Assembly (NCBI GenBank): GCA_903919925.1
Contig: CAIXKO010000534.1
Span: 1 to 34,183, forward strand
Direction of reading: 5' to 3'
DNA length: 34,183 bases
Source of the DNA: an uncultured Bacteroidota bacterium
Lineage (GTDB): Bacteria; Bacteroidota; Bacteroidia; Bacteroidales; UBA12481
Under the pieces are notes generated by a model that was not told the origin of the DNA, ran no database searches, and saw only the letters and a list, made by a program, of their open reading frames with translations. The position numbers and the translations under genes were made by a program. Numbering within the stretch: position 1 is the stretch's first letter; each line of letters begins with the position of its first letter. This document shows positions 6,701-32,918 of the stretch, in pieces.

Positions 6701-7470
6701 TTACCGGTACCGGTTTTCTTGTATTTGAAAAAAGTGGCGAAGTGGCAGTCTACAAGGAACCGATTCCTTTGGCCTCCAACTGGTATGCAAACCCGGCGGT
6801 TTTGTTATATAACCTTACACCGGCAGATACCAAACCAGTGGGGTGGTACCGGTTTAAAGCACCTCCCGGCCTGAGTTCCATTGAGTTGGCCATGAGCAAC
6901 AAACCCACCATCTGGGTAAACGGAAGGGAGATACCCGCGAATAGTTACCGCCCCGTATCCGGATTGTTTGCCGATTCATTGCAAAAAGCATGGAAAGTAT
7001 TGCTGCCGGCACCTGTTTCATCCGGGTCCGCTGTGGCGGTCAGGTTTCCAATGGAACCGGGTTTGACGGGTGGCGCTGCTTGTGCCGAGCCTATCCGGCT
7101 TAACTGCGGCAAGGGGATGATCAGGCTGGGTAATTTATTCGATAACGAGAGTTTGATGACTTATTCCGGAGGAATGTGGTACCGGAAAACCATTGTATTA
7201 AATGCTTCTCAGGTTAGTTCATCAAAAGTTACCATTGATTTGGGAGACCTGGTATCTACCGCCGAGGTGATCATTAATGGTAAGTCAGCAGGAAAACGCC
7301 TGACACCGCCCTGGCAGTTTGATTTGACCGGCAAGGTAAAACAGGGCGAAAACCGGCTGGAGGTATTGATTTATAATACTTTGGGTAATTATTACCTGAC
7401 AACTCCGAGTAAGTACATTGGGTCAACCAGGTCTGGACTGATTGGTCCGGTGAAGCTTATACTGGAGTAG
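3760..7470 (+). CDS. Secreted glycoside hydrolase, GH106-like (alpha-L-rhamnosidase family candidate)
   Basis: N-terminal signal peptide (MKLKLYLFIFLNLLFSLDQMLPAQ). GYGEVSFYWWLGDTLTKERITWQLDQLKGKSITGLQINYAHSD and 'SLSDYTLGIAGQGWFVDEMLKENPGL' resemble large GH106-type proteins. C-terminal beta-sandwich-like region (STAEVIINGKSAGKRLTPPWQFDLTGKVKQGENRLEVLIYNTLGNYY). Confidence 0.78.
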   Translation: MKLKLYLFIFLNLLFSLDQMLPAQNASGSKTLPPGYPDRSANLDAFPGFKNPPAGYGEVSFYWWLGDTLTKERITWQLDQLKGKSITGLQINYAHSDEGGNIWGLTYPSKPRLFSKDWWDLFGWFLGEAKKRGMSVSLSDYTLGIAGQGWFVDEMLKENPGLYGSRLLSRVYNIKPGLDTIIGIPDNTLSALNYRVANGSIVPGSGERLASTGSNKIQIRPSNEGRKVVLIYFETVKTSFDPMNPLSGPKVIEKFFQPFTDHCPGEAGKGLNFFFSDELNFGISGLLWNSRFAEEFKKRKGYDIVPELSGLFIDIGTRTPKIRMDFNDVLVTLSEESFFIPIYNWHTERGMLYGCDHGGRGLDVTEFGDYFRSQRWMSGPGCDQPNLDRNISKNKVASSITHLYERPRTWLEGYHSSGWGTSSAQIADATFTNFAMGQNLLSLHGLYYSTHGGWWEWAPPDNHFRQPYWANMDDFLKCSERLSYILSQGYHQCDVAILYPVAPKEAGMRGDESVATAFAAGNMLYSSGIDFDFIDFESLVRAKIKNAELQVSGENYKVLILPAMAAIRFAALEKANDFFQAGGIVIAIGSLPEASERIGRDDPEIQVLNKKIFGLTADKIKVNGKYVNAYAPNMGTGIFLVKPDDISEVTGKALTVDFRVLSDVSKPYILHRKIGKRNIYYVYGVAKDTVCYFRCNGKVELWDPWTGTSTELKVLSSGNSGTRLRMPLSATDPQLIVFSPGEPSIAEEAEAPSEKGEVLLVGDWEFELKPTLDNLYGDYRQPAYQGYVATDANLIRYKKETKADVAWQVPMLDDAQWDTVQVSYGPQFWKLGPLPSKADSLSLESRLSVLKSVDPAVPVVVAGKTYFWKPWQFSWRMGLKGNPGRQGYHGLKELIHNDIFQFGEAVRDWPGVPSPRIVPEKEGTTYFIWSTVVSAQDQSAKLVKGGVDPSGIWVNGKSVSISEAAVFLKPGNNPVLLRYSVTGTGFLVFEKSGEVAVYKEPIPLASNWYANPAVLLYNLTPADTKPVGWYRFKAPPGLSSIELAMSNKPTIWVNGREIPANSYRPVSGLFADSLQKAWKVLLPAPVSSGSAVAVRFPMEPGLTGGAACAEPIRLNCGKGMIRLGNLFDNESLMTYSGGMWYRKTIVLNASQVSSSKVTIDLGDLVSTAEVIINGKSAGKRLTPPWQFDLTGKVKQGENRLEVLIYNTLGNYYLTTPSKYIGSTRSGLIGPVKLILE

Positions 7471-7727: not shown

Positions 7728-9143
7728 CTACTTTTTATCCCAGAAGATTTTGTCGGTACCCGGGTCAACCACGGCTGCAGGGCAGTTTGGGTCGTCGGTT
7801 CTCACCTCGGTAGGGTACATGTGGCGATAGGGAGGGTGGTTATTAACCAGCCCGTCGATACTGCCTGCCCAGTCGAGTTCGGGATATCCGGTACGCAGGT
7901 AATCGAGCCAGGGTTCAGTTGTGCGGATAAACATAGCCAGATATTTTTGCGTAATAATTAATTTCTGAGCAGCCTCTTCGTTGGAAGGGAAGGGTTTAAA
8001 CTGGGCGAGGTAGGTGGTAACGGCAGCCCCGGTAATTCCGTTAGCTTCCAGACTGGCTGTTACGCCTGCCTTAAAAGCGTTTTCAGCCTGAGGGTAATTA
8101 CCTTTAAAAACGTAAGCTTCGGCTTCCAGGAACCGGGCCTCAGGGAGGGTGGATACATACATTGATGTTGCAGGTGCCACATAATTGGGATGGATTCTGC
8201 TTAAGCTTCCATCAGCCTGGCCGGTGGTGCAAAATTTGTCGGTCCGGAAAACACCATCGCTGGCCGGCTCAAAATATACCGGGATTCTGGGGTCGCTAAA
8301 CCCTTGCATCAGGTTCATCATAAAAATGGAAGGCCTCCAGGGATTTATAAAGGTAGCCTGATAAAACCATGACCAGGCATTTGAAGCATCCTGGAAGGCA
8401 ATTTTAGGTTCATCATCAGCCGATTGCAAACCTCCGGTTAAAGCGGCAAGAGCAATATCTGCCTGGCCTGCCTTGGTTTTTCCCGGTGCATAGCTTAGCC
8501 TCATAGCATATCGGGCCTTCAGGGTTTTAGCCGTTTTTATCCACTTGCTCACATCTCCGCCAAAAATGATATCGGCTTTTGCGTATATCGATTGTCCATC
8601 GGCTGAAAGATTTACAATAGCATCGTCCAGCATTTTAAATATCTCATCATAAACAACTTGCCCTTCATCAAAAACCGGATTTAGTATTTCGGGGTACATA
8701 AAGGCCTGTTTAACCGGAATCTTATCGAGCCGATCAACTATTTCAGAATAGTGCCAGGCCATAATTATCTGGGAAATACCCATATAATATTTCTTGTCAT
8801 TTTTTAAGGCTTCCTTATACAGGTAATTAGCGTTGCGCAAGCCACCGGTATAGTACGACCAGAGGTATGCACCATCATCGGCACCATAAATAAGGCGTTC
8901 TATATTGCCCCATGTACCGGTGATTCCCATTTGCAAATTGTAGCACAGCGGACCGTATGTTCCGGTTCCGTTTCCAATGTATACCCACTGCATCTCCAGG
9001 GCAGGTAACATTGCATCTTCCACGCTGCCTTCTCCCGGAGTAAGGTCGCTGGGGTCCGTATTTATATCGAGGAACTTATCGCAAGAAGCCATTCCAATCA
9101 GCAATACGGCCAGGAAGGGGATAATCTTTTTTCTCATATTCAT
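7728..9143 (-). CDS. SusD/RagB family nutrient-binding outer-membrane lipoprotein
   Basis: Lipobox LLIGMASCDKFLDINTDPSDLTPG, typical SusD-like start. Directly downstream of a SusC-like gene. Confidence 0.92.
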   Translation of the reverse strand: MNMRKKIIPFLAVLLIGMASCDKFLDINTDPSDLTPGEGSVEDAMLPALEMQWVYIGNGTGTYGPLCYNLQMGITGTWGNIERLIYGADDGAYLWSYYTGGLRNANYLYKEALKNDKKYYMGISQIIMAWHYSEIVDRLDKIPVKQAFMYPEILNPVFDEGQVVYDEIFKMLDDAIVNLSADGQSIYAKADIIFGGDVSKWIKTAKTLKARYAMRLSYAPGKTKAGQADIALAALTGGLQSADDEPKIAFQDASNAWSWFYQATFINPWRPSIFMMNLMQGFSDPRIPVYFEPASDGVFRTDKFCTTGQADGSLSRIHPNYVAPATSMYVSTLPEARFLEAEAYVFKGNYPQAENAFKAGVTASLEANGITGAAVTTYLAQFKPFPSNEEAAQKLIITQKYLAMFIRTTEPWLDYLRTGYPELDWAGSIDGLVNNHPPYRHMYPTEVRTDDPNCPAAVVDPGTDKIFWDKK

Positions 9144-9164
9144 GATAAATAATTGATTAGTAAT

Positions 9165-12100
9165 TTAAAAAGTAACCCGTAAGAATAGTGAATAGGTTTT
9201 AGTGGAGGGGAACTGAAAGGTTACCCAACCCTGAGCATTGGAATCACCAAAAGAGCAATATTCCGGGTCGGCACCGGTAAAGCTTTTATCCACTTTTCTC
9301 CAGATGTTCCTGCCAATAAACCCAAGATCCAACCCTTTAACAAATTGCATTTTCTTAACCCAGGCTGTTGGTACGGCATAAGTTAGAGATAATTCGCGAA
9401 GCTTGATATAATCCGTTTTCTGCACATCGCCCGGGTTTTCAAACCAGCTTTCGCTATAATTCTGCTGCATATAATCCTGGTACCTGATTTTAGTAGTGTT
9501 GGTACCGGTAATTACCAGTTCTCCATTCTCCAGATGGCCTTTTGATCCTTGTAAGAGCAGCCATCCATCAGCAGGACGATCAAGTGTAAAGGATGAAGTT
9601 CCGGCACCGATCATATAACCTTCAGCACCATTTCTGGTATATCCGCCAATCTGGCAATCGAAAAATGCTGTTAGAGTAAAGCCTTTGAATTTGAATGAAT
9701 TGCGTAAGCCCCCGCGCCATTTTGGCTCCACCGGACCCAGCACTTTCATCCCGCTTTCATCTTTGATATATTGCCCGGTACGTCCCATGGTTTCATCGCG
9801 GACCACTGGTTTACCATTAGCATCACGGATGTAATCCCAACCCATAATCATTGGATAAGGATAGCCCTTAATGGCACGGCGTTCATACCACAATTCCAGA
9901 AAATCCAATGATGGAGAAACTTCAATAACCTTGCTAACGTTTTTCGACCAGGTGAGGTTTACATCCCAGGTAAAATCCTTCGTTTTCACAGGAGCGCCAT
10001 AAAGCATGAGCTCAATTCCCTTGTTCCCTATTTCTCCAAAGTTCATTTCCCGGTCAAAATAACCGGTGGTTTGCAATAATCTTCCAACGATGATTTGATT
10101 AAGAGTATGTTTGGAGTACAAAGAAATCTCGCCGCCCAGTCGGTTTTTTAAAGTCATAAACTCCAGCCCGACCTCAAATTCTTTAGTTAACTCATTCACG
10201 AGGTTAGGATTTGGAGCGGTCGTTCTGGGTAAAACGCTACCCACTCCGCCAAATGGAAATTCAATAACATCAACACGTGCCAGATCCCATTTCTGAACAC
10301 CTCCGTATGCCCACATATCGTTACCCACTTCGGTGTAGGAAACGCGAAGTTTTCCGAAATCCAGGAATTTGCTGTCTTTCATCAATTCGCTGAACAAAAA
10401 GGCAACGCTGGCTGATGGGTAAAAATAGGTGCGATTGGCTTTTGGCAGCGTTGAGGTGAAATCGTTGCGGCCTGTAAAAGTGGCATAAACCATTCTTTTC
10501 CACGAAACCATGGCCTGTCCGTAACCACTCATTGATCTTTTTTGCCCATATCCAAAACTTGGGGTCTTGGTTTGAAGGTTATTCAGTGTGTACATATCCT
10601 TATTGAGGAAATTGGCGCCGCTCACGGTTGCCCAGGTCCATTTATTATCGAAAACGTTACCCCCAACCATGGCTTCAACCTGAAAATCCTTGAAATCTTT
10701 ATTGTAATGAAGCATAACATCGGTGTTGAAGGAGTAGTTGGTTGTTGTGCTTTCGCCATAACGGCCGCCAGGAGTGCAAAGGGATGTAGAGTTCAGGTAA
10801 GAGGTCATAGAGTTGGTATAGGTATCGATACCGGCTTTACCAGTGAGGCGTAACCCTTCCATAATCTTATAGTTGAAACCAAAGGTAGGAATCACGTGAT
10901 TACGTGAACTTTTATCACCGGTGTTGGTCAGCGTCCATGCGTATGGATCCCTCCATGGGCTTCGGTAAGTGCGAACGTTTCCATTGGCATCAAAAACGGG
11001 GAAAGGATTCCACGAGGTTGGTGAGTTCATAAAAGTATTCATGAACGACTCGGCGCCCCAACCCTCAGGCAACCGGTTATTTCTGATCATGGAAAATTGC
11101 ATGGTTGTATTAAAGGAAAGCTTTTCCGACACGTTAAAGGTGAAGTTGGTTGTGATGTTGCTTCTTTTGTAAGTAATAGGATCCAGATATCCCTGATTAT
11201 CAAGATTAGCAACGGAAACAAAATAGGTTGCATTTTTGGTTCCGCCTTTAATTGAAACGCTGTTTTCGGAAGTGTAGGCCGGCTTAAACAATGACCATTT
11301 ATCGAAGTATTTGGCCTGAAGAGAATCGGCGGCGGCAAAGGCCGGTCCAAAAGTAAGCTGGGTTTTTGCATAATCACCGTTAACATACCGCCAGGTGCCG
11401 TCTTCATTTTGCATTCCCTGGGTGTATTTATCCTGCAAAGGCATTTTGTTAACAATATCCCAAGAGGATGAGTGGCTGTAAGTGATCTCCGGTTTTGTGT
11501 TCAGCTTGCCGTTTTTCGTGGAAATAATTATAACTCCATTGGCTCCCCGGGCTCCATATAATGCCGATGCAGCAGCCCCTTTGAGAACTGATATGTCCTC
11601 AATATTGTTAGGATCAAGATCGGCCATAGTGGAGTTTCCCGATCCCCGTCCAGCCTGATCGCCGATGAGGGATCCAAATTGATCATTGGAATACGGAATT
11701 CCGTCAACAATCATCAGCGGCTGGCTGTAGTTCAATGAACTGATCCCCCTGATACTAACTTTAGCCGCATTTCCTGCCAATCCTCCAGATGTCGAGATGT
11801 TTACCCCGGCAACTTTTCCTGACAGCGCTGAAATAACGTTTACTTCCTTTGATCGGACCAAATCGTTTGCTGAAACGTTAGCTACCGAATAAGTGAGGGA
11901 TTTCTTTTCCTTTTTAATGGCTAATGCCGTAACTACTACATCTCCAATCAAAACTTCGTCGCTTTCCAGCACCACATTGATGATTGTTCTCCCATTAACC
12001 GGGACCTCAGCATATTTCATCCCAATAAAAGATACCACCAGGGTGGAACCTGTTGCCACCTTGATTGTAAAGCTGCCATTTTGATCGGTTGAAGATCCAT

Positions 12101-12257
12101 TGGCTGTTCCTTTCTCCTGCACATTAGCACCAGGCAGGGTAGCTCCGTCAATAGCGGCAGTTACAGTTCCTTTAACTGTGATTTGTTGCCCAAACCCACT
12201 GAGCCCGAAAGAAACCAGGAGCATCAGAAGGCATGACAATTTTTTAAGTTTAAGCAT
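9165..12257 (-). CDS. SusC/RagA family TonB-linked outer-membrane protein
   Basis: Carboxypeptidase-like N-domain (VKGTVTAAIDGATLPGANVQEKGTANGSSTDQNGSFTI), plug domain (ALSGKVAGVNISTSGGLAGNAAKVSIRGISSLNYSQPLMIVDGIPYSND, ISVLKGAAASALYGARGANGVIIISTKNG), beta-barrel ending in an aromatic residue (FLRVTF). Confidence 0.96.
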   Translation of the reverse strand: MLKLKKLSCLLMLLVSFGLSGFGQQITVKGTVTAAIDGATLPGANVQEKGTANGSSTDQNGSFTIKVATGSTLVVSFIGMKYAEVPVNGRTIINVVLESDEVLIGDVVVTALAIKKEKKSLTYSVANVSANDLVRSKEVNVISALSGKVAGVNISTSGGLAGNAAKVSIRGISSLNYSQPLMIVDGIPYSNDQFGSLIGDQAGRGSGNSTMADLDPNNIEDISVLKGAAASALYGARGANGVIIISTKNGKLNTKPEITYSHSSSWDIVNKMPLQDKYTQGMQNEDGTWRYVNGDYAKTQLTFGPAFAAADSLQAKYFDKWSLFKPAYTSENSVSIKGGTKNATYFVSVANLDNQGYLDPITYKRSNITTNFTFNVSEKLSFNTTMQFSMIRNNRLPEGWGAESFMNTFMNSPTSWNPFPVFDANGNVRTYRSPWRDPYAWTLTNTGDKSSRNHVIPTFGFNYKIMEGLRLTGKAGIDTYTNSMTSYLNSTSLCTPGGRYGESTTTNYSFNTDVMLHYNKDFKDFQVEAMVGGNVFDNKWTWATVSGANFLNKDMYTLNNLQTKTPSFGYGQKRSMSGYGQAMVSWKRMVYATFTGRNDFTSTLPKANRTYFYPSASVAFLFSELMKDSKFLDFGKLRVSYTEVGNDMWAYGGVQKWDLARVDVIEFPFGGVGSVLPRTTAPNPNLVNELTKEFEVGLEFMTLKNRLGGEISLYSKHTLNQIIVGRLLQTTGYFDREMNFGEIGNKGIELMLYGAPVKTKDFTWDVNLTWSKNVSKVIEVSPSLDFLELWYERRAIKGYPYPMIMGWDYIRDANGKPVVRDETMGRTGQYIKDESGMKVLGPVEPKWRGGLRNSFKFKGFTLTAFFDCQIGGYTRNGAEGYMIGAGTSSFTLDRPADGWLLLQGSKGHLENGELVITGTNTTKIRYQDYMQQNYSESWFENPGDVQKTDYIKLRELSLTYAVPTAWVKKMQFVKGLDLGFIGRNIWRKVDKSFTGADPEYCSFGDSNAQGWVTFQFPSTKTYSLFLRVTF

Positions 12258-20159: not shown

Positions 20160-23100
20160 ATGATGAGGAAATATATACCATTTACGCAACTAGCCCAGCG
20201 GGTTTGTCTGGTGCTAACATTCATGTTGGTTGGCAGTTGGACTGGATACTCGCAAACAAGTGCAGAGATTGCAACGTTTTCAGTCGATGGAAGTCCTTTA
20301 ATAAGTATTGGACCGGGTGGGATCAATCAGGTGGCTAACACAGTAGATCTGAAAGTGCCGTATTATACTGACCTGACAACCCTGGAAAAACGTGTGACCA
20401 ACTTTACACTGAGTCCAGGAGCTGCACAATTGTATTGGACCGCAACACCATGGACTGGCAACGTGGCCAATTTAGCTGGCAAAACCAAGTGGCTGATGGC
20501 TACTGGCAACGATCACTCGTTGACCTTGCCAGGAGGGGTTGATTTTGATTACTCGCTGGATGCGGATGGCGCAACAGCCGGTAACCAGATATGGTTGTCA
20601 GTACTATTGCCAACTACTTCTTTTGAAAACTATCTTTTGAATATTACAAAAGTAGCCCCAACCACCACAAAAGGCCTGGCTCTCACCAGTGTAACAGGCC
20701 TGGTAGATTGTTTCGGTGATCCGAGGAGCCCGATTATCAGCAATCCGGTATCTAACCAATTTGGAGGATATGATTATACTATCACTTTATTAACCAATAA
20801 CGATGCCAATAAGACTCTGACTTTCAATTATAACACTACAACTGATTATAATGGAACACCGGCAACTCCGGCTACGGGTTCGACTTTTAATTTTGGCACC
20901 AATGGTACTGGTCCGCACACCGTTATCGTTCAGGCACAGGATCCGGCAGTTACCGGAACCTATCGTTTTTATGCAAACTGGGTTACACCCGGAACCGCAA
21001 AAGTTCTGAGCACCTTTAGTCTGCGGGTTCCCAAATTGGTACCAGCTCCTGCCGGCAGCACCTATTTATCCGTAGCAGGTATACCTGATCCCGTTATCCC
21101 AAGAGTTTACAATGTTACGGTACCTTATGGCACCGATGTAACGGGTTTGGCAGCCGATTTTATTATCAGTGCCAATGCTATCATGACTCACTCCGCGGAC
21201 GCAGCGGTGCGCCAGGTTTCAGGAACAACTGTGAATGATTATTCAAAGCAGGTTGCTTTCACTGTATTTGATCAGGCCTGTGGTACAGTAGAGTATTTTG
21301 TTAACGTTATTGTTGCACCCAACGGGGGAAATGATATTTTTTCAGTTGAATTCAGCGGCACGGGTAATGATCCCTGTTATGAAGAAACCAATGGCTATAA
21401 ACCTTGGGGCTGGAATGGCAACTTTACGGTCGTTCAACCCGTGCCACCCTCAAACGGTTCCCTGAGCCTGACGGTTCCTTTTGATACCGATCTGGATCCT
21501 TTTATACTGAATACAGTGCTGACCCCGTCGTCGGTTGGCGCTAATATTGAGCCGGCCAGCATTACCGCCTTTCCTTTTCTGGGATTAAGTGGTGCCAATG
21601 TTGTTACGGTGACCGCTACCAACGGTGTTTCACAGAAAAAATACCTGATGACTATATCCGGTACTACCAGTAACCCGAGTAATGCGCATCAGCTCACCTC
21701 ATTCAGCTTCGAGGGATTAACCCCACCGGTAAACGGGAATGTTGATCTTTTGCGGAACCGGGTTGATGTGATTGTTCCGTTCGCAACTAATCTGAATGGG
21801 TTGGTGGCTTCATTTACCAAGAGTCCACATGCCTGTGTATATATTAATGGGCCCCTTATCACCGACAAAACCCTTCAGATTTCAGGAAGCAGCGCAAATG
21901 ATTTCACAAATCCACGAACCTATACGGTTATAGCACAAGATGCAACACCCGAGGTGCCGAATGAGGATTATTATAATATATATGTTGCCAAGGGACTGCC
22001 TGATGCACGCAATGAGATTTCCGGACTTACGGTTACCGGCCAAAAAAACTGTTTTGAGGAGCCATTTGGCGGAGTTACCGGGTCGGGCACGGCTTATGGA
22101 ATCCGCATGCGTACCGGTCTTGATGAAGGAGTGCATCTGACTGTTACCTTTACCAAGCCGCCTTTGGCTACCTGTCCGATTACATCGCCTTATGACTGGG
22201 CGGTATCATCATCGCCACTTACTATTCCGATTACCTCAGAAAGTGGTGCCACCGTAAATTACGTGATTACACCAACCTGGGTTACCCCGAGCGATAAAAA
22301 GGAGATTAAGACCTTTTCTTTTACCCCCGGCAGCAATTCACAGTTTGTGGAAACATACACCGGCGTAATAACCGGCTATCAAATTGCAGTGAATGTTCCT
22401 TATGGAACCAACGTTTCGGCTTTGGTTGCAACTTTTACCCTGGATGATCAATATTCCTGGATGACTCATTCAGAGGAGAATATGGACCAACAAGTAAGGC
22501 AAACCAGTGATGTTAGTGCTATAAACTATAGCACTCCGGCCGCCTTTACCGTGTATGATGAAAACTGCCAGACGGTTGAGTATATGGTTACCGTTACGGT
22601 GGCCCCGAATGGCTCAAATGAAATTAACTCGATCGATTTTTTTGGAACCGGAAACGATGATTGTTATGCTCCGTGGAATTGGAACGGTTCTTTTACCAAG
22701 GTTGCGGGACCGATGACTGTGAAATCGGTTGTTTATGACGGAACGTTCACGCTAACAGTTCCTTATGGCACAATTCTTACGGCAACACCACCGGACGCTG
22801 CTTTTACCCTGAGCCTGGTTAAATCGCCTCTTTGCACCATGCTTCCTGCCTCTATCACCAGTTACACAGTAGGAACGCCTATTCCTGTTACGGTTACTGC
22901 CGCGAATGGAATCTCGAAAAAGAAATTCCTGATTATTATTAATGTTGATCCCACGCGGAGCAATGAGCATTTGTTAAAAACATTCAGCTTTCAGGGATTG
23001 ACTCCCCCAGTAACCGGAATCGTTACGGAAGCCACGCACCGTGTTGACCTCACGGTTCCTTTTGCAACCAATGTGAATGGTTTGGTAGCTACTTTTACCC

Positions 23101-26100
23101 ATAGCGATCATGCTTGTGTTTATATAAACGGACCCGGTATCACGGATAAAACATTACAATATTCCGGAGTAACCGTCAATGATTTCAGTAATGCGCGAAC
23201 CTATACTGTTGTTGCGCAAAGCGGAAACCCAAATGAAGATTATTATAATGTGTATGTTGCCAGGGGACCTGCTGATATACACAATGAGATTTCCGGACTA
23301 ACCATTACCGGCCAAAGGAACTGTTTTGATGAGCCATTTGGCGGAGTCACCGGGTCGGGCACTGCCTACGGAATCCGTTTGCGCACCGGTCTTGATGCGG
23401 GAGTGCATCTGACGGTTACCTTTACCAAGCCGGCTTTGTCTACCTGCCCTATTACATCGCCCTATGACTGGGCAGTATCATCATCGCCACTTACTATTCC
23501 GATTACCTCAGAAAGTGGTGTTACCGTAAATTACGTGATTACGCCAACCTGGGTAACCCCAAGTGATAAAAAGGAGATTAAAACCTTTTCATTTACCCCA
23601 GGCAGCAATTCACAGTTTGTAGAAACATACACCGGCGTAATAACCGGGTATCAAATTGCAGTGAATGTACCTTATGGAACCGACGTTTCGGCTTTGGTTG
23701 CAACTTTTACGCTGGATGATCAATATTCCTGGATGACTCATTCAGAGGAGAATCTGGACCTTGGGGTAAGGCAAACGAGTGGTGTGAGTGCTATAAACTA
23801 TATCACCCCGGCAGCCTTTACGGTGTATGATGAAAACTGCCAGACGGTTGAGTATATGGTTACCGTTACTATGGCCCCTAATGGTTCAAATGATATTAAC
23901 TCCATCGCCTTTTTTGGCACCGGAAATGATAATTGTTATGCTTCCTGGAACTGGAATGGTTCTTTTACCAAGGTTGCCGGCCCAGTAACGGTGAATTCGG
24001 TTGTTTATGACGGAACGTTCACACTCACTGTTCCTTATGGCACAAATCTTACTTCAACGCCACCGGCTACTGCTTTTACCCTGAGCCTGGTTAAATCTCC
24101 TCTTTGCACCATGCTTCCTGCAACTATCACCAGTTACACAGTAGGAACGCCTATTCCTGTTACGGTTACTGCTGCCAATGGAATCTCGAAAAAGAATTTC
24201 CTGATTACCATTAATGTTGATCCCACGCGGAGCAACGAGCATCTGTTAAAAACCTTCAGCTTTCACGGATTGACTCCGCCAGTAAGCGGAACCGTTACAG
24301 AAGCCACTCATCGTGTGGATATCACAGTGCCATTTGCAACCAATATGAATGGCTTGGTAGCTACTTTTACCCATAGCGATCATGCCTGTGTTTATATAAA
24401 CGGACCCGGTACCACTGATAAAACATTACAATATTCCGGTGTAACCCCCAATGATTTCAGAAATGCACGAACCTATACTGTTGTTGCACAAAGCGGAAAC
24501 CCAAATGAAGATTATTATAATGTGTATGTTACCAGAGGACCTGCTGATACGCACAATGAGATTTCCGGGCTAACCATTACAGGCCAAAAGAATTGTTTTG
24601 AAGAAGCATTTGGCGGAGTCACCGGGTCGGGCACAGCATACGGAATCCGTTTGCGTACCGGTCTTGATACGGGAGTGCATTTGATGGTTGCCTTTACCAA
24701 ACCGGCTTTGTCTACCTGCCCGATTACCTCACCTTATGACTGGGCAGTATCAACTTCGCCCCTGACTATTCCGATTACCTCAGAAAGTGGGGTTACCGTA
24801 AATTATGTGATTACGCCAACCTGGGTAACCCCGAGTGATAAAAAAGAGATTAAAACCTTTTCATTTAAACCCGCCAGCAATTCACAGTTTGTGGAAACCT
24901 ACACCGGTGTTATAACAGGTTATCAAATTGCGGTGAATGTGCCTTATGGAACCAACGTTTCAGCTTTGGTTGCATCTTTTACGCTGGATGATCAATATTC
25001 CTGGATGACTCATTCAGAGGAGAATCTGGACCTACGGGTAAGGCAAACGAGTGGTGTGAGTGCTATAAACTATATCACCCCGGCAGCCTTTACGGTGTAT
25101 GATGAAAACTGCCAGACGGTTGAGTATATGGTTACGGTTACCGTGGCCCCTAATGGTTCAAATGATATTAACTCCATCGACTTTGTTGGAACCGGAAACG
25201 ATAATTGTTATGCTTCCTGGAATTGGAACGGATCATTTACCAAGGTTGCAGGCCCGATAACGGTGAATTCGGTTGTATATGACGGAACGTTCACGCTCAC
25301 TGTTCCTCATGGCACAAATCTTACTGCAACGCCACCGGCCACTGCTTTTACCCTCAGCCTGGTTAAATCGCCTTTTTGCACCATGGTTCCTGCCTCTGTC
25401 ACCAGTTACACAGTAGGGTCGCCTATTCCAGTTACAGTCACTGCCGCCAATGGAATCTCGAAAAAGAAATTCCTGATTACCATTAATGTTGATCCCACCC
25501 GGAGCAATGAGCATTTGTTAAAAACATTCAGCTTTCAGGGATTGAATCCTGCAGTAAGCGGAACCGTTACGGAAGCTACACACCGTGTTGACCTCACGGT
25601 TCCTTTTGCAACCAATATGAATGGATTAGTGGCTACTTTTACCCATAGCGATCATGCCTGTGTTTATATAAACGGACCCGGTACCACTGATAAAGCATTA
25701 CAATATTCCGGAGTAACCCCCAATGATTTCAGTAATCCACGAACCTATACTGTTGTTGCGCAAAGCGGAAACCCAAATGAAGATTATTATAATGTATATA
25801 TTACCAGAGGTGCTGCAGATACACATAATGAGCTTACGAGTTTATCCATCTCCGGACAAACCAATTGCTTATCCGGAGCCCACGCAGGGGAAATATCCGG
25901 AACGAGTCCGAATTTTACCTTCCGTTTGAGAAACGTCTTGGATGCAGGTAAATCATTGAGCGTTAGCTTTACCAAGCCAGCGTTGGCAACAGCTTGGGTG
26001 GGGGCAACACCAATAACCTCTCCTTATACCTGGACCCCATCAGGAAACACACCGCTGGTTATTTCCATCAGAGCAGAAAACGGTGCACAGGCAAATTACA

Positions 26101-29100
26101 CAATAACTCCGACATGGGTAAATCCAAGTACCTTAAAATCAATTACTTCGTTCAGTTTGCTGATTCCCAAAGCGGTTGGTGGCGGTACCTGGACAGCGAC
26201 TTCCGATCCAATCAACCAATCCTCAAAGGTTATCACAGTTCATGTTCCCCACGGATCGGTCTTAAATCCATTGGTTGCCGTATTTACGCTTGACGATAAA
26301 TATGCTTTAATGACCCACTCGGAAGAGAACGGCGATTTGCGTGTTCTGCAAACAAGCGGGGTTAGTATAAATAACTATACAACATCTGTTGCCTTTACGG
26401 TTTACGATGAGGGTTGTAGTACGGTGGAATACTTTGTAGTTATTGCCATGGACGAAAACAGCGGCAATGATTTCACCTCAACTCCCGGATTCAGCGGTAC
26501 TGGCAATGATCCTTGCTATAATGTACAACGCGATGGTTATCAGTATCAACCTTGGGCATTTTCAGGTAGTTTTACCTCTGGTGGTCCCGTAACAGCCGGC
26601 AATCCGCCGTTTGATTACGATGCAACACTCACCCTCACGGTACCTTTTAATACCAACCTTAATAGTTTTATCCTATCATTGCCTATTCCGGTTGGAGCAA
26701 GCATATCTCCCTCATTGATTACTAGTTATACACTGGGTACTCCAATTCCGGTAACGGTAACGGCCAGTAATGGCGTGGCCCAAAAGTTTTATCTGCTCAC
26801 TATATTGCAGAATGCCGCGAATACTGAGCATGTGCTCACCTCTTTCAAATTCCTGAAGGCAAACAACCCTGGCCTTGCCGAAGATATTGTTGCCGCTGGT
26901 AACGATATAACACACGAGTTTGGTTTGCTGGTTCCCTACGCAACAAATCTTACGGCATTAAAAGCATCATTTACCAGGAGCGATCATGCCTGCGTGTATA
27001 TCAACGGACCTGGTACCACAGATAAAACAATACAGATTCCAGGTGTGACTGCCAATAATTTCGGATCATCGTTATTTTACACGGTTGTAGCACAAAGCGG
27101 CTCGCCCGATGAAAGCAACTATCACGTGGTGGTATCCAAAATACCTGCCGACACCCATAATGAGCTCACCAACCTGGCGATAACGGGGCAAGCCGATTGC
27201 CTGACCGGGGCATTTGCCAGTGAAATATCAGGTTCCAGCCCAAATTGGACCATCCGGCTTCGTACCGGTCGCGATAATGGCAGGCCATTGATTATTAATT
27301 TTACAAAACCAGCACTGGCTACCAGTGGAGGTTTTAGTTCCGGCGATAGCTGGACACCATCAGGTAATACTCCAAAAAGTATTGTAATCACCTCGGAAAG
27401 CGGGGTGCCTGTTACCTACACCATTACGCCTCAGTGGGTATCGCCCAGTACAAAAAAGGCACTCACCTATTTTGCTTTTGAACCCTATTCGGAAATTCCC
27501 GGTACCGGTAACAGTCAGCTTCATCTGGTGCATCAGGGCACGATTGATGAAGCCGGAGGCCAGGTTGTTGTTCATGTTCCTTATGGCACAGATGTCACTG
27601 CGCTGAGGGCTTCGTTTATTTTGGACGATAAATATGCAAAGTTGACTCATTTGGAATTTAATCCTACAGCAACAGTTCTGCAAACCAGTGGCATAAGTCC
27701 GGTGAATTATACCCAGCCCGGGGCTTTTACCGTTTATGATGAAGCATGCAATACCAAGCAGTATTTTGTTACGGTGATTGTAGATTCTAATTCAGGTAAC
27801 GATGTTACCAATATAACTTTTAGCGGACTGGAATACCCATCCTGCGCGGTTTGCAATAATCTTCCCCCTATACCAGCCGCTCCGGTTGCCGTTTCGATAA
27901 ATGGAACAAATATCACGATTACGGTTCCTTTCGGAACTGATCTTGGGCACATTGTACTTGGAGGTTCCTATTCCCCGGGTGCTACCTGCTCCACAAATCT
28001 GGCAAATGTTACCAGTTATGTATCTCCTTTGCCACTGGTTGTGACCGCTGCAAATGGAGTTGCCAAAAAGACCTATACCCTTACCATTTTGAGAGCGGCT
28101 GCACTCAGCGGAACGCAACTGCTAACCTTTGGATTTGAGACCTCGCACAATGCCGGACTCACTCAGAACAGTTGGAATATTCTGCCCATCAGCCAATCAA
28201 CTTACCGGGTTGATGTTAAAGTTCCTTTCGGAACCAATTTAACTCAATTGGTGGCTTCGTTTACACACTCACCGATGGCTTGCGTTTACATTAACGGCAG
28301 ACAATGGACAGCAACCGATCTGCAATGCTCAGGGCAGTACAAACCCAATAATTTTAGTCAGGCAATTACTTATACCGTTAAGGCTCAGAACGGAGATGAA
28401 GCTTATTACAATATTTATGTATCCTATCCGGTGGATGGAGATGTTTGTGAAAATGCACTGCCGCTGACTTTCCCGGTAGTTAATCTCTTTGGCACTACTA
28501 CCGGCTTTAACGATGATTACAACCAATCGCCATGCAGTGGGGAGCAAAACTACATGGATGGTAATGATGTGGTTTATTCGATAGAGCTGACTCAAACCGG
28601 AACTTTGTCGGGTAGCATTCTTGGATCTTATGCCGCTGTTCATATTTTAAGTCAATGCCCTGGCCAGCAACTCAGTCAATCAGCATGCAGGGGATTTGCC
28701 GGAGGTCCAAACGGGGGTTCATTTTCCAGTGAAATGGTTGCCGGACGATATTTTGTGATTGTAAGCTCACTTACGGGTCACCAGACTACTACCTATTTGC
28801 TTAATCTACAGTTTGAAAGCCGGAATCATAATCAGCCAGACTGGACTATTGATCCAACACGATTCAGCTACAACGGCGATATTACCGCAGAGATTTTTAT
28901 TAATGATATTGCAGTTACCGGTGGTCAGGGTATCCTCGGAGCCTTTTTTGGTGATGTTTGCCGCGGGGTTCAAACCGGAGGAATGACTGGCCCATCAGGA
29001 AGTTACGTGTTTATTATCAGGTGTTACAGTAATTTGGCTTCAGGCGAAACGCTATCGTTCCGATATTATGATCCGGTACTTGATACGGTGCTTGCTGTTA

Positions 29101-30425
29101 CTGAAACCATTGCTTTTGAGGATAATATGATTTTGGGCGATGCTCAAAATCCAATTCCTTTGCATGCCTATTTCCCGGTTCAGGTATCAAAACAATTACC
29201 TGCTGGTTGGAGCTGGTTTAGCCTCAATGTAACCAACTCCGATATGGCACCTGCAAAAGTGTTGGCAACTGTTGCTCCGGTTAACCTCGATTATATTAAA
29301 AGTCAAACGGCATCGGCAACCTACTATACCGCAACAGGTTGGTTTGGTGATTTGACTACCATTAACCCTAAAGAGATGTATAAATTATATCTCTCCCAAT
29401 CGGCTACTTTAACTTTCGCGGGCAATCCAGCCAGTTCTTTTGCAAACCCCATCACGATTAAAGCAGGTTGGAATTGGATCGGCTATATTCCTCAGGTTGG
29501 CCAGTCTATTGCCAACGCCCTGTCCAGCATAAACCCGGTAGCTGCCGATTATATTAAAAATCAGACCCTTTCGAGTACCTATTATGCTGTATCGGGTTGG
29601 TTTGGAGGTCTTTCAGGATTAACACCGCTTGATGGGTATATGCTTAAAACGAGTCATGGAGCAGTATTAAGTTACGGAAGCATTGAACCGGTGAGCTTGA
29701 AGAGCGTGAAGAACGTGAAGAATGTGAAGAACGAGAAGAACGTTAAGAACGTTAAGAACGAGAAGAACGAGGAGAACGTTAAGAACGTGAAGAATGGGGA
29801 GATTGGGGAGAGTGTGGTGAGGGTGGAAGATTTTGAATATTCGGGGCAGGTGAATGCGGCGGTCTATTTGAATGGGCGGAGTTTTGAAGCTCAGGATTAT
29901 TGCCTCTTTTCGGTGGTTGATGGTCAGGTTAGAGGTGCGAGCCGCGGATTGTGGTTTGAGCCTACTAAAGAGTGGATACACAATCATCTTATATATAGTA
30001 ATATAGAAGAAGGTGATACGGTCAGGTTCCGATTGTATGATTCAGCATCTGACAAGTGGTATCAATTTGAAGAATATCTGGTTTTTAAATCCGATATGCG
30101 AATTGCCAATGCCTTCAACCCTTTCCTCCTTAAATCTTCCTCCTTACTTAACCCTTCACCCCTCACCCTTAACCCTTCTTTAAGCGTATGGCCTAATCCG
30201 GCTGGGTACCTGGCAACCATTGGATACGCGATAACCACTGATCAGGTTGTTGTTATTCAGATAATCGATTTTTCCGGCAGAATCGTAAATGAATTGAACC
30301 TGGGAAAACAGCCATCGGGTGAGCATGTTGCAATTTGGGATACATCAACAATCGATCAGGGAGTTTATTACCTTCGGTTTAAAAATTCCCAATCCGTATA
30401 TAAACAAGTTGTAATAGCCAGATAA
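20160..30425 (+). CDS. Giant (3421 aa) secreted multi-repeat surface protein with DUF5018-like beta-sandwich repeats, PPC-like domain, C-terminal modules and a T9SS type A sorting domain
   Basis: Signal peptide. Many copies of '(I)VxVPYGTxVxxLxAxFxL...Y(T)VxxE/DxxxxxYxVxV'. C-terminal SVWPNPAGYLATIGYAITTDQVVVIQIIDFSGRIVNELNLGKQPSGEHVAIWDTSTIDQGVYYLRFKNSQSVYKQVVIAR is a Por-secretion-type sorting domain. Confidence 0.93.
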   Translation: MMRKYIPFTQLAQRVCLVLTFMLVGSWTGYSQTSAEIATFSVDGSPLISIGPGGINQVANTVDLKVPYYTDLTTLEKRVTNFTLSPGAAQLYWTATPWTGNVANLAGKTKWLMATGNDHSLTLPGGVDFDYSLDADGATAGNQIWLSVLLPTTSFENYLLNITKVAPTTTKGLALTSVTGLVDCFGDPRSPIISNPVSNQFGGYDYTITLLTNNDANKTLTFNYNTTTDYNGTPATPATGSTFNFGTNGTGPHTVIVQAQDPAVTGTYRFYANWVTPGTAKVLSTFSLRVPKLVPAPAGSTYLSVAGIPDPVIPRVYNVTVPYGTDVTGLAADFIISANAIMTHSADAAVRQVSGTTVNDYSKQVAFTVFDQACGTVEYFVNVIVAPNGGNDIFSVEFSGTGNDPCYEETNGYKPWGWNGNFTVVQPVPPSNGSLSLTVPFDTDLDPFILNTVLTPSSVGANIEPASITAFPFLGLSGANVVTVTATNGVSQKKYLMTISGTTSNPSNAHQLTSFSFEGLTPPVNGNVDLLRNRVDVIVPFATNLNGLVASFTKSPHACVYINGPLITDKTLQISGSSANDFTNPRTYTVIAQDATPEVPNEDYYNIYVAKGLPDARNEISGLTVTGQKNCFEEPFGGVTGSGTAYGIRMRTGLDEGVHLTVTFTKPPLATCPITSPYDWAVSSSPLTIPITSESGATVNYVITPTWVTPSDKKEIKTFSFTPGSNSQFVETYTGVITGYQIAVNVPYGTNVSALVATFTLDDQYSWMTHSEENMDQQVRQTSDVSAINYSTPAAFTVYDENCQTVEYMVTVTVAPNGSNEINSIDFFGTGNDDCYAPWNWNGSFTKVAGPMTVKSVVYDGTFTLTVPYGTILTATPPDAAFTLSLVKSPLCTMLPASITSYTVGTPIPVTVTAANGISKKKFLIIINVDPTRSNEHLLKTFSFQGLTPPVTGIVTEATHRVDLTVPFATNVNGLVATFTHSDHACVYINGPGITDKTLQYSGVTVNDFSNARTYTVVAQSGNPNEDYYNVYVARGPADIHNEISGLTITGQRNCFDEPFGGVTGSGTAYGIRLRTGLDAGVHLTVTFTKPALSTCPITSPYDWAVSSSPLTIPITSESGVTVNYVITPTWVTPSDKKEIKTFSFTPGSNSQFVETYTGVITGYQIAVNVPYGTDVSALVATFTLDDQYSWMTHSEENLDLGVRQTSGVSAINYITPAAFTVYDENCQTVEYMVTVTMAPNGSNDINSIAFFGTGNDNCYASWNWNGSFTKVAGPVTVNSVVYDGTFTLTVPYGTNLTSTPPATAFTLSLVKSPLCTMLPATITSYTVGTPIPVTVTAANGISKKNFLITINVDPTRSNEHLLKTFSFHGLTPPVSGTVTEATHRVDITVPFATNMNGLVATFTHSDHACVYINGPGTTDKTLQYSGVTPNDFRNARTYTVVAQSGNPNEDYYNVYVTRGPADTHNEISGLTITGQKNCFEEAFGGVTGSGTAYGIRLRTGLDTGVHLMVAFTKPALSTCPITSPYDWAVSTSPLTIPITSESGVTVNYVITPTWVTPSDKKEIKTFSFKPASNSQFVETYTGVITGYQIAVNVPYGTNVSALVASFTLDDQYSWMTHSEENLDLRVRQTSGVSAINYITPAAFTVYDENCQTVEYMVTVTVAPNGSNDINSIDFVGTGNDNCYASWNWNGSFTKVAGPITVNSVVYDGTFTLTVPHGTNLTATPPATAFTLSLVKSPFCTMVPASVTSYTVGSPIPVTVTAANGISKKKFLITINVDPTRSNEHLLKTFSFQGLNPAVSGTVTEATHRVDLTVPFATNMNGLVATFTHSDHACVYINGPGTTDKALQYSGVTPNDFSNPRTYTVVAQSGNPNEDYYNVYITRGAADTHNELTSLSISGQTNCLSGAHAGEISGTSPNFTFRLRNVLDAGKSLSVSFTKPALATAWVGATPITSPYTWTPSGNTPLVISIRAENGAQANYTITPTWVNPSTLKSITSFSLLIPKAVGGGTWTATSDPINQSSKVITVHVPHGSVLNPLVAVFTLDDKYALMTHSEENGDLRVLQTSGVSINNYTTSVAFTVYDEGCSTVEYFVVIAMDENSGNDFTSTPGFSGTGNDPCYNVQRDGYQYQPWAFSGSFTSGGPVTAGNPPFDYDATLTLTVPFNTNLNSFILSLPIPVGASISPSLITSYTLGTPIPVTVTASNGVAQKFYLLTILQNAANTEHVLTSFKFLKANNPGLAEDIVAAGNDITHEFGLLVPYATNLTALKASFTRSDHACVYINGPGTTDKTIQIPGVTANNFGSSLFYTVVAQSGSPDESNYHVVVSKIPADTHNELTNLAITGQADCLTGAFASEISGSSPNWTIRLRTGRDNGRPLIINFTKPALATSGGFSSGDSWTPSGNTPKSIVITSESGVPVTYTITPQWVSPSTKKALTYFAFEPYSEIPGTGNSQLHLVHQGTIDEAGGQVVVHVPYGTDVTALRASFILDDKYAKLTHLEFNPTATVLQTSGISPVNYTQPGAFTVYDEACNTKQYFVTVIVDSNSGNDVTNITFSGLEYPSCAVCNNLPPIPAAPVAVSINGTNITITVPFGTDLGHIVLGGSYSPGATCSTNLANVTSYVSPLPLVVTAANGVAKKTYTLTILRAAALSGTQLLTFGFETSHNAGLTQNSWNILPISQSTYRVDVKVPFGTNLTQLVASFTHSPMACVYINGRQWTATDLQCSGQYKPNNFSQAITYTVKAQNGDEAYYNIYVSYPVDGDVCENALPLTFPVVNLFGTTTGFNDDYNQSPCSGEQNYMDGNDVVYSIELTQTGTLSGSILGSYAAVHILSQCPGQQLSQSACRGFAGGPNGGSFSSEMVAGRYFVIVSSLTGHQTTTYLLNLQFESRNHNQPDWTIDPTRFSYNGDITAEIFINDIAVTGGQGILGAFFGDVCRGVQTGGMTGPSGSYVFIIRCYSNLASGETLSFRYYDPVLDTVLAVTETIAFEDNMILGDAQNPIPLHAYFPVQVSKQLPAGWSWFSLNVTNSDMAPAKVLATVAPVNLDYIKSQTASATYYTATGWFGDLTTINPKEMYKLYLSQSATLTFAGNPASSFANPITIKAGWNWIGYIPQVGQSIANALSSINPVAADYIKNQTLSSTYYAVSGWFGGLSGLTPLDGYMLKTSHGAVLSYGSIEPVSLKSVKNVKNVKNEKNVKNVKNEKNEENVKNVKNGEIGESVVRVEDFEYSGQVNAAVYLNGRSFEAQDYCLFSVVDGQVRGASRGLWFEPTKEWIHNHLIYSNIEEGDTVRFRLYDSASDKWYQFEEYLVFKSDMRIANAFNPFLLKSSSLLNPSPLTLNPSLSVWPNPAGYLATIGYAITTDQVVVIQIIDFSGRIVNELNLGKQPSGEHVAIWDTSTIDQGVYYLRFKNSQSVYKQVVIAR
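20670..22010 (+). repeat. Super-repeat unit 0 (divergent) of the giant surface protein
   Basis: Protein-level alignment of KGLALTSVTGLVDCFG... through ...NEDYYNIYVAKGLPDAR with units 1-5; same order of four subdomains. Confidence 0.75.
22011..23282 (+). repeat. Super-repeat unit 1 (1272 bp, near-identical class)
   Basis: Begins AATGAGATTTCCGGACT (NEISGL). The same landmark recurs at 23283 and 24555, exactly 1272 bp apart. Confidence 0.95.
23283..24554 (+). repeat. Super-repeat unit 2 (1272 bp)
   Basis: Same landmarks as unit 1 at +1272 bp (e.g. CATTTGGCGGAGT, CAATATTCCTGGATGACTCATTCAGAGGAGAAT). Confidence 0.95.
24555..25826 (+). repeat. Super-repeat unit 3 (1272 bp)
   Basis: Same landmarks as unit 1 at +2544 bp. 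Confidence 0.95.
25827..27158 (+). repeat. Super-repeat unit 4 (divergent, about 1332 bp)
   Basis: Protein-level homology NELTSLSISGQTNCLSG... to ...DHACVYINGPGTTDKTIQ...KIPADTH. Confidence 0.88.
27159..28440 (+). repeat. Super-repeat unit 5 (most divergent, about 1282 bp)
   Basis: Protein-level homology NELTNLAITGQADCLTG... to ...MACVYINGRQ...DEAYYNIYVSYP. Confidence 0.82.
29700..29798 (+). repeat. Imperfect 9-bp tandem repeat, 11 units of consensus AAGAACGWK, encoding K-N-V/E triplets
   Basis: Direct reading: AAGAGCGTG AAGAACGTG AAGAATGTG AAGAACGAG AAGAACGTT AAGAACGTT AAGAACGAG AAGAACGAG GAGAACGTT AAGAACGTG AAGAATGGG. Confidence 0.95.
30184..30422 (+). other. T9SS type A C-terminal sorting domain of the giant protein
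   Basis: WPNPA start, paired beta-strands, 'DTSTIDQGVYYLRFKNSQSVYKQVVIAR' ending; typical of the Por_Secre_tail/TIGR04183 class. Confidence 0.88.
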
Positions 30426-30515: not shown

Positions 30516-32918
30516 ATGAAAACCCTTATAAAGATTTGTTTAGCCATGCTGGTTTTTACCACGATAAGTGCTCATGGTCAAACCAACCAGCCTGACTGGA
30601 CAGTTGATCCGGTCAACTACTCGTATGATATGGAAGTGGTTGCGCAGGTCTTTTTCAATGCCAGTCCAGTAACTGCCAATGGGATATTGGGAGCGTTTAT
30701 CGATGGAACATTACAGGGAGTAAAGGCTGTTGGATTAAATTACTCTGGTAAGTATGTGTTTATTATGCGTGTATATGGGAATATAGTGAGTGGAAAAACC
30801 ATCACTTTTAAGTTTTACGATACGGCCAGGGACCGGGTGTACGACATTACCGAGACTATTCCCTTCATGGCTGATTCAAGAGTTGGCAACGGAGATACTC
30901 CGCAGCTGTTTCACGCAATCATGGGATCCGATGCCACCCTGAGTGATCTTAGGGCCGGTGGTGTTACTATCACGGGTTTTAATTCATCCACCCTTACCTA
31001 CATTGTGAAATTGCCAAAGGGCACTTTGGTTCCGCCTGTTGTTACGGCAACTACAACGGATATTAAAGCTGGCAAGCTAATAACTCCTGCTGCATCTATA
31101 CCAGGGGTGGCCTCTGTTTTGGTGACTGCCGAAAACGGAACCACTCAAAAGACATATACCGTAAGCTTTGATATTATAAAAGGGACCGATGCAACGCTGC
31201 GTGATCTCAAAGTTGACGGTACTACTCTGACTGATTTTAATCCGGGCACCCTGGATTATCTCGTAGTTTTGCCACATGGAACGCTGTTGGTACCTACTGT
31301 AACCGCAACAACTACTGATGCTTCGGCTGCAAAGCTTATTACCCCGGCACCTTCTGTACCCGGAACCACCAGCATTGCGGTAACCGCTGAGGACGGGATT
31401 GCCCAAAAACTTTACACGGTTTATTTCTCGAATTCATCTTATATAAATAAACCAACCTGGGTAGTTAACGAAACTGACTACTCCCTGGATGCTGAGGTAA
31501 TTGCACAGGTATATGTCGACAATCTGCTCAGTACTGCAGCAGATGGTATTTTGGGATGCTTTGTGGGATCCAGTTGCCGTGGAGTAAAAACGGGAGGATC
31601 AATAGGGCCAACAGGGAAATTTGTGATTTCCATTCGGTGTTACAGTAATACTGCATCGGGTGAGACCTTAACTTTCCGGTATTTCGATCCGATCCTGGAT
31701 ACGGTGCTTCCAATACGCGAAACCGTTGCTTTTGAACCGAACATAATCGTGGGAACGGGTATAAATCCTTTTCTCATGCATGCTTCAACCAATCTCATTG
31801 CCATTAAGCCGCTGGCGGCAGGCTGGAACTGGTTCAGTTTGAATTTGTTGAATTCCGATATGTCTTTGAACAATGTATTGGCTTCAGTCAGTTTTCATGA
31901 AGGGGATTATATTAAGAGTCAAACCCTTTCAGCCATGTATTATAAGGATTTTGGATGGTTTGGTGATCTCACCACTATTGATCCCACTGAGATGTATAAA
32001 ATCAAAGTGAGTGCGATGGATACCATTGAATTCGTTGGATTTGAGATTATTCCGGGTAGTTTGACTGTTTCGGTTAAGGTGGGTTGGAACTGGATTGGTT
32101 ATCCACTGCTCACTCCCGGGACGGTGGAGAATGTATTAAAAGAAATATATCCTGTTGTAGGTGATTATATCAAGAACCAGACGTTATCAAACTCGTATTA
32201 TGCCGGATCAGGATGGTTTGGCGAGTTAAACAATATGGTGCCGCTCGATGGTTATATGCTCAAGACCAGTCACACGGGCACTCTGTCTTACACTTCAGGA
32301 GCTGGAGGATATACTGATACCCGCGATGGCACGGTTTACCCATGGGTTAGAATCGGTACTCAAAGCTGGATGCTTCAGAATTTGTCTTACCTTCCTTCGG
32401 TCAGTCCATCGGCAAGCGGATCCGATGTCATACCTTATTATTATGTATACGGTTACCAGGGAACCAGTGTGAGTGATGCAAAAGCAACATCCAACTTCAA
32501 TACTTATGGTGTTTTGTATAACTGGGAAGCGGCCAAAACTGCCTGCCCAAGCGGCTGGCATTTGCCTACTGATGAGGAGTGGAAAACCCTCGAAAAGTAT
32601 CTGGGGATGAGTGTGACAGAGTCAAACACATCGGGATGGAGGAACAGTGGATCGGTTGGAACTAAAATGAAATCCACCACCTTATGGCCCGTGAGTGGGA
32701 GAGGAGATAACAGCAGTGGTTTTACGGCCCTTCCCGGAGGTAATCGGGGCACAAGCGGTGGCTTTTATAATATTGGTACGTATTCCGTATTTTGGTCTGC
32801 CACCAGTACTGATCTTACAAATGCTTGGTATAGAGGATATTATTCGTCTGATGATGGTTCTGGAAGAGATATTTGGTATCGGTACGGAGGGTTTTCGGTG
32901 AGGTGCCTGAGAAATTGA
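30516..32918 (+). CDS. Secreted modular surface protein: cadherin-like/DUF5018-like beta-sandwich repeats, shared Trp-rich modules, C-terminal Fibrobacter succinogenes major paralogous domain
   Basis: Signal peptide (MKTLIKICLAMLVFTTISAHGQ). Two 'GxDATLxDLxxxGxTxTxFNxxTLxYxVxLPxGT' repeats. C-terminal 'DGTVYPWVRIGTQSWMLQNLSY...YGVLYNWEAAKTACPSGWHLPTDEEWKTLEKYLG...SGFTALPGGNRG...FWSATS...GFSVRCLRN' matches the FSU major paralogous domain. Confidence 0.92.
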   Translation: MKTLIKICLAMLVFTTISAHGQTNQPDWTVDPVNYSYDMEVVAQVFFNASPVTANGILGAFIDGTLQGVKAVGLNYSGKYVFIMRVYGNIVSGKTITFKFYDTARDRVYDITETIPFMADSRVGNGDTPQLFHAIMGSDATLSDLRAGGVTITGFNSSTLTYIVKLPKGTLVPPVVTATTTDIKAGKLITPAASIPGVASVLVTAENGTTQKTYTVSFDIIKGTDATLRDLKVDGTTLTDFNPGTLDYLVVLPHGTLLVPTVTATTTDASAAKLITPAPSVPGTTSIAVTAEDGIAQKLYTVYFSNSSYINKPTWVVNETDYSLDAEVIAQVYVDNLLSTAADGILGCFVGSSCRGVKTGGSIGPTGKFVISIRCYSNTASGETLTFRYFDPILDTVLPIRETVAFEPNIIVGTGINPFLMHASTNLIAIKPLAAGWNWFSLNLLNSDMSLNNVLASVSFHEGDYIKSQTLSAMYYKDFGWFGDLTTIDPTEMYKIKVSAMDTIEFVGFEIIPGSLTVSVKVGWNWIGYPLLTPGTVENVLKEIYPVVGDYIKNQTLSNSYYAGSGWFGELNNMVPLDGYMLKTSHTGTLSYTSGAGGYTDTRDGTVYPWVRIGTQSWMLQNLSYLPSVSPSASGSDVIPYYYVYGYQGTSVSDAKATSNFNTYGVLYNWEAAKTACPSGWHLPTDEEWKTLEKYLGMSVTESNTSGWRNSGSVGTKMKSTTLWPVSGRGDNSSGFTALPGGNRGTSGGFYNIGTYSVFWSATSTDLTNAWYRGYYSSDDGSGRDIWYRYGGFSVRCLRN

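Follow-up and report, generated by a model that had tools for sequence, protein, structure and literature searches.

How a giant bacterial surface protein comes to contain long, uniform copies of one DNA unit, and what such an array might do for the cell, is the question raised by a 34,183-nucleotide stretch of an uncultured Bacteroidota genome, hereafter the window. The ORF list and domain matches define a 3421 aa ORF at 20160-30425, encoding a giant exported surface protein on the forward strand, where all features of this gene given below lie. The initial annotation placed in it three tandem, in-frame copies of an exact 1272-bp super-repeat spanning 22011-25826.

Identity and register of the repeat

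Self-alignment of the ORF places a core at 21957-25772, in which three head-to-tail 1272-bp units (21957-23228, 23229-24500 and 24501-25772 in mechanical phase) align end to end at offsets of +1272 and +2544 with 0 indels, as the initial annotation had claimed. Pairwise DNA identity ranges from 89.0 to 91.6% (90.0, 89.0 and 91.6% for the three pairs) and protein identity follows closely (90.1, 88.4 and 92.2%). Length and reading frame are exact, but the sequence is not: 107-140 nucleotides differ per pair, about two-thirds of them at third codon positions (87/127, 91/140 and 76/107), a bias that had already been noticed by eye. At offset 1272 the best-scoring block extends past the third unit, covering 21957-25870 at 90.3% identity. 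A chance origin of the core is excluded, because the best 1272-nt window at the other in-frame offsets tried in the ORF (1272 and 2544 aside) reached only 44%, at offset 1332, which corresponds to a diverged unit. Self-identity at an offset of ~106 aa, the length of a single domain, equalled background, and this period was rejected as the repeat.

The individual landmarks of the original description are all in place. The motif NEISGL is encoded at 22011, 23283 and 24555, the block CATTTGGCGGAGT is present only at 22063, 23335 and 24607, and antisense ORFs of 72, 62 and 93 aa start at 22970, 24242 and 25514. We rejected these antisense "shadow ORFs" as genes; they are a by-product that recurs along with the repeated DNA. 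Beyond the contig of the window, unit DNA matches contig C788 only (69% over 208 bp, with a further piece of 32 bp). Two scans of a collection of genome contigs, one using the unit as query and the other the alignment of all six, yielded no relative.

The count of three copies describes the homogeneous core correctly, but the array is longer. Using profiles for domains A, B, C and D built from the three core units and then iterated, we identified 24 Ig-like domains in the unbroken order (A-B-C-D)x6 at residues 171-2757, forming six super-units from 20670 to 28430. In this natural domain phase the core runs from A2 to D4 (22008-25811), which the 22011-25826 first reported fits, and divides into U2 (A2-D2, 22008-23267), U3 (A3-D3, 23280-24539) and U4 (A4-D4, 24552-25811). 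The outer units are diverged, with 44-51% identity to the core when whole units are compared. They comprise U1 (20670-21995; A1 20670-20993, B1 20994-21326, C1 21327-21674, D1 21678-21995), U5 (A5-D5, 25824-27143; 53-55% to the core) and U6 (A6-D6, 27156-28430; 36-54% to the core). Core domains of the same type are 87-94% identical, and adjacent domains 21-33% (mean 26%). Each super-unit has four cysteines, one per domain, that are invariant in 6/6 units. A spacing of 32-33 residues, spanning the B-C junction, separates the cysteine of B from that of C, and an interdomain disulfide is possible.

Domain fold, export and genomic setting

Summed over its repeats, the whole protein scores 64.9 bits against Pfam DUF6242 (cut-off 29) and 46.2 bits against DUF5018 (cut-off 38.2), and unit U3 on its own scores 28 against DUF6242, just below cut-off. 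An AlphaFold model of the 424-aa four-domain unit, computed from the six-unit alignment, is almost all beta and of moderate confidence (pLDDT 66.9, pTM 0.47); structure searches with it returned mostly generic multi-domain Ig-like chains at low TM-scores. More useful was a confident single-domain model of eight strands built for domain D with eleven in-protein relatives (pLDDT 87.6). It matches surface domains of Bacteroides, namely 8aa2_T from the levan utilisome (rmsd 1.7 over ~100 columns), 3hbz and 4jrl, and a sequence profile search also matched the levan utilisome DUF4960 protein and 3hbz (E 2.4e-6). The stalk domains are Ig-like and of the DUF6242/DUF5018 type. The models show beta-sandwich domains. 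The stalk may be rod-shaped, although the interdomain geometry in the four-domain model is not confident.

The array is flanked by recognisable terminal regions. A segment resembling a signal peptide by eye (MMRKY...LVLTFMLVGSWTGYSQT, 20160-20255) is followed by an N-terminal Ig-like domain (20256-20669), which matches type D weakly and contains an insertion; a paralogue on C788 shares this domain. Behind U6 lies a C-terminal module of ~132 aa (VCENALPLTFP..., 28428-28823), PPC-like by eye and with no match in a Pfam search. This module and the additional C-terminal modules that follow (28824-29681) are common to many proteins of the genus. One of the additional modules recurs at 30582-30926, and one segment is present twice, at 29288-29347 and 29546-29605. 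An in-frame 9-bp tandem repeat (GTGAAGAAC-like, 29690-29815) encodes a KNVKNEK linker. Repeats of the GTGAAGAAC type are dispersed in the genome, with 226 pattern matches, as against 3 in one congener and 0 in six others; several of the other places examined look non-coding, because stop codons occur in most frames. The repeat thus reads as a lineage-specific dispersed minisatellite.

The C terminus carries a T9SS type A sorting domain at 30186-30416 (TIGR04183, 28.7 bits, cut-off 23), and Pfam PF18962 scores 26.9 on it, just under its 27. SprA (TIGR04189) scores above cut-off in the genome, where it is divided between two contigs, and there are ~149 matches to T9SS sorting domains. Given the sorting domain, SprA and the abundance of sorting domains in the genome, the predicted export of the giant protein by the T9SS is well supported. 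Together, the alignment, domain order and sorting domain bear out the proposal of a tandem, in-frame super-repeat in a giant surface protein. From the domain array, a fibrillar or stalk-like role would be expected, and adhesion is its presumed function; a ligand-binding domain was not identified in the giant protein, including its N-terminal part.

Upstream of the gene lies a LytTR response regulator, and downstream are a FISUMP protein with the common C-terminal modules and then an M6 peptidase. Another M6 peptidase, on contig C850, carries a single B-C-D block with tail modules and a KNVKNEK-type linker as in the window protein, and would represent module shuffling among T9SS proteins. Elsewhere in the window, a GH106-type alpha-L-rhamnosidase adjoins a SusC/SusD-type pair on the other strand (3760-7467 and 7728-12257), which is likely a rhamnose-glycan utilisation locus. 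The T9SS and the SusC/SusD-type genes mark the host as a member of the Bacteroidota.

Divergence and history of the array

The initial annotation suggested recent duplication, gene conversion or selection on filament length as the source of the uniform core. Pairs among U2-U4 have a dS of 0.28-0.36 and a dN/dS of 0.13-0.16, and synonymous divergence between core and outer units is saturated. The core copies are therefore old and under purifying selection, which does not support a recent duplication. Selection on filament length is plausible.

A second giant protein of the same genome, encoded on C788 next to nadE, has a similar N-terminal region and two A-B-C-D units; the middle units are absent from it and its 3' end is cut by the end of the contig. 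In a tree of units and same-genome paralogues, U2-U4 cluster as one clade (100/100), C788 unit 1 joins U1 (100/99), and C788 unit 2 joins U6 at moderate support (92/87). The corresponding identities are 41% between C788 unit 1 and U1, and 57% between C788 unit 2 and U6. With both C788 units placed beside the outer units U1 and U6, internal addition is the probable origin of the middle units. The simplest reading of these sequences would be a two-unit ancestor with the middle units gained in the window gene, and it is possible that C788 instead lost middle units that it once had. Contamination is an unlikely source of C788, as the genome has only one copy of the neighbouring nadE.

Among 12 genomes of the family, the full four-domain unit occurs only in this one. 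Giant proteins of the same domain type adjoin nadE here and in two congeners, where the nadE-linked relatives match the four-domain unit only in part. This suggests conservation of the nadE site and a relationship between this locus and the gene ancestral to that of the window.

These data allow us to propose a model, which we consider likely, in which a T9SS-exported fibrillar stalk with a presumed role in adhesion grew longer as a four-domain block was duplicated internally. The ancestor would have had two super-units, those that are first and last today. In this lineage the whole A-B-C-D block would then have been duplicated in tandem and in frame mid-array, most probably by unequal homologous recombination, with U2-U4 as the product of the last rounds. 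Since then these copies would have accumulated changes within the limits of purifying selection, and may at times have exchanged sequence by conversion. Anchored at the surface, the stalk would likely hold the N-terminal region off the cell for adhesion or ligand contact. Because the duplicated unit consists of four dissimilar domains, the stalk could grow while each domain keeps a dissimilar neighbour. Consistent with multi-domain-unit expansion, the array has a four-domain period and a core, U2-U4, set between the diverged U1 on one side and U5 and U6 on the other. Expansion in mid-array by several domains at once is a recognised pattern (Bjorklund 2006, PMC1553488).

A less probable, though credible, account is concerted evolution, in which ongoing gene conversion or repeated unequal crossing over homogenises the core, so that dS underestimates the age of the triplication. 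The relationships among the copies do shift along the unit: in domain A, U3-U4 have a dS of 0.31 against 0.57 for U2-U4, and in domain D it is U2-U4 that are closest (0.16 against 0.36). The pattern of the odd copy out is heterogeneous along the unit (permutation p 0.0125; max-chi2 breakpoint p 0.0175), and some runs common to the core copies are long (p 0.002-0.08). D1, which adjoins the core, is 68% identical to it, as against 29-46% for A1-C1. These signals lend weak support to the conversion first suggested, but they are not corrected for multiple testing and uneven selection could explain them. The core, moreover, has no long identical tract apart from one of 100 bp, and all core pairs lie near a dS of 0.3, which argues that conversion is not frequent now.

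Possible length change and comparison with known repeat proteins

The architecture also invites comparison with Periscope Proteins (SasG, Rib and Sgo_0707; PMC8201768, PMC9704523), in which similar DNA likewise encodes a surface stalk of folded units that follow one another in tandem and closely resemble each other. Their most variable members have the highest repeat identity (PMC8201768). Periscope Proteins are anchored by sortase and carry an N-terminal ligand domain, whereas the unit here comprises four dissimilar domains whose neighbours share 21-33%, the protein ends in a T9SS sorting domain and no N-terminal ligand domain was found. Periscope Proteins are said to break the rule of low identity between neighbouring domains. 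It is kept here because the similar unit spans four dissimilar domains, and partly for this reason we do not class the window protein as a Periscope Protein.

A strain-variable adhesin of this general kind, its reach set by fast changes in the copy number of the 1272-bp unit, is in our judgement unlikely. The surface export signal, the folded tandem domains and the near-identical DNA units would all suit it, but 90% identity in mostly short identical runs would depress recombination. Each pair shares only 9-11 identical runs of at least 25 bp, the longest of 100 bp, which weakens the earlier description of the array as a RecA hotspot. Three copies diverged to a dS of ~0.3 imply a fairly stable copy number, and a second-length version of the array is absent from the assembly. 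We give similarly little credence to the idea that the four-domain super-repeat was itself selected, as a means of changing length by homologous recombination with every neighbour <35% identical, sparing the cost of misfolding borne by ordinary stalks of near-identical repeats. That an assembler created or miscounted the copies is very improbable: the assembly is a draft of 916 contigs with 5.36% contamination, but an assembler would not invent the 107-140 differences seen per pair, whose bias to third positions reflects selection, and with no identical run above 100 bp the copies have diverged sufficiently to be distinguished. As to the short-read collapse that had been feared, the three copies are real and distinguishable, yet an extra near-identical copy could be hidden.

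Other giant proteins offer analogies. In the titin A-band, similarity is highest among the middle super-repeats, the first and the last having diverged (PMC10665226). The window array shares this gradient between middle and ends, as well as ordered Ig-like super-repeats in which domains of equal position are most similar; titin is, however, a muscle protein of unrelated function with Ig/FnIII super-repeats of other lengths, and the likeness is one of analogy only. The same holds for the triplicate region of nebulin (PMC9109913), which also has three tandem copies of a multi-unit block in a giant gene, but is a segmental duplication of exons in the human genome, where disease variants in copy number are known. 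Closer in fold, by profile and by structure, are the Bacteroides DUF6242/DUF5018 surface proteins (the levan utilisome DUF4960 protein, 8a9y/8aa2, and 3hbz). At ~340-470 residues these are too short for such an array, in contrast to the 24 domains found here.

Repeats are also present in related proteins. Among same-order relatives with this domain type, the best self-identity over 300 nt is mostly 43-65%, with a few reaching 71-92% over shorter stretches. In other giant ORFs of the genome (C639, C82, C398, C896, C264 and C815) long repeats are 77-89% identical in DNA over 300 nt, and the offsets that score best are 384-1260 bp. The window array has the longest uniform unit among the repeats compared and is not a different kind of thing.

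The repeat is thus otherwise of an ordinary kind for giant Bacteroidota surface proteins. With its graded units, and with a shorter paralogue elsewhere in the genome, it provides a clean bacterial example of a giant stalk probably lengthened in mid-array by duplication of a multi-domain block. It could also serve to test whether super-repeats let recombination alter the length of a stalk while meeting the requirement that neighbouring domains differ.
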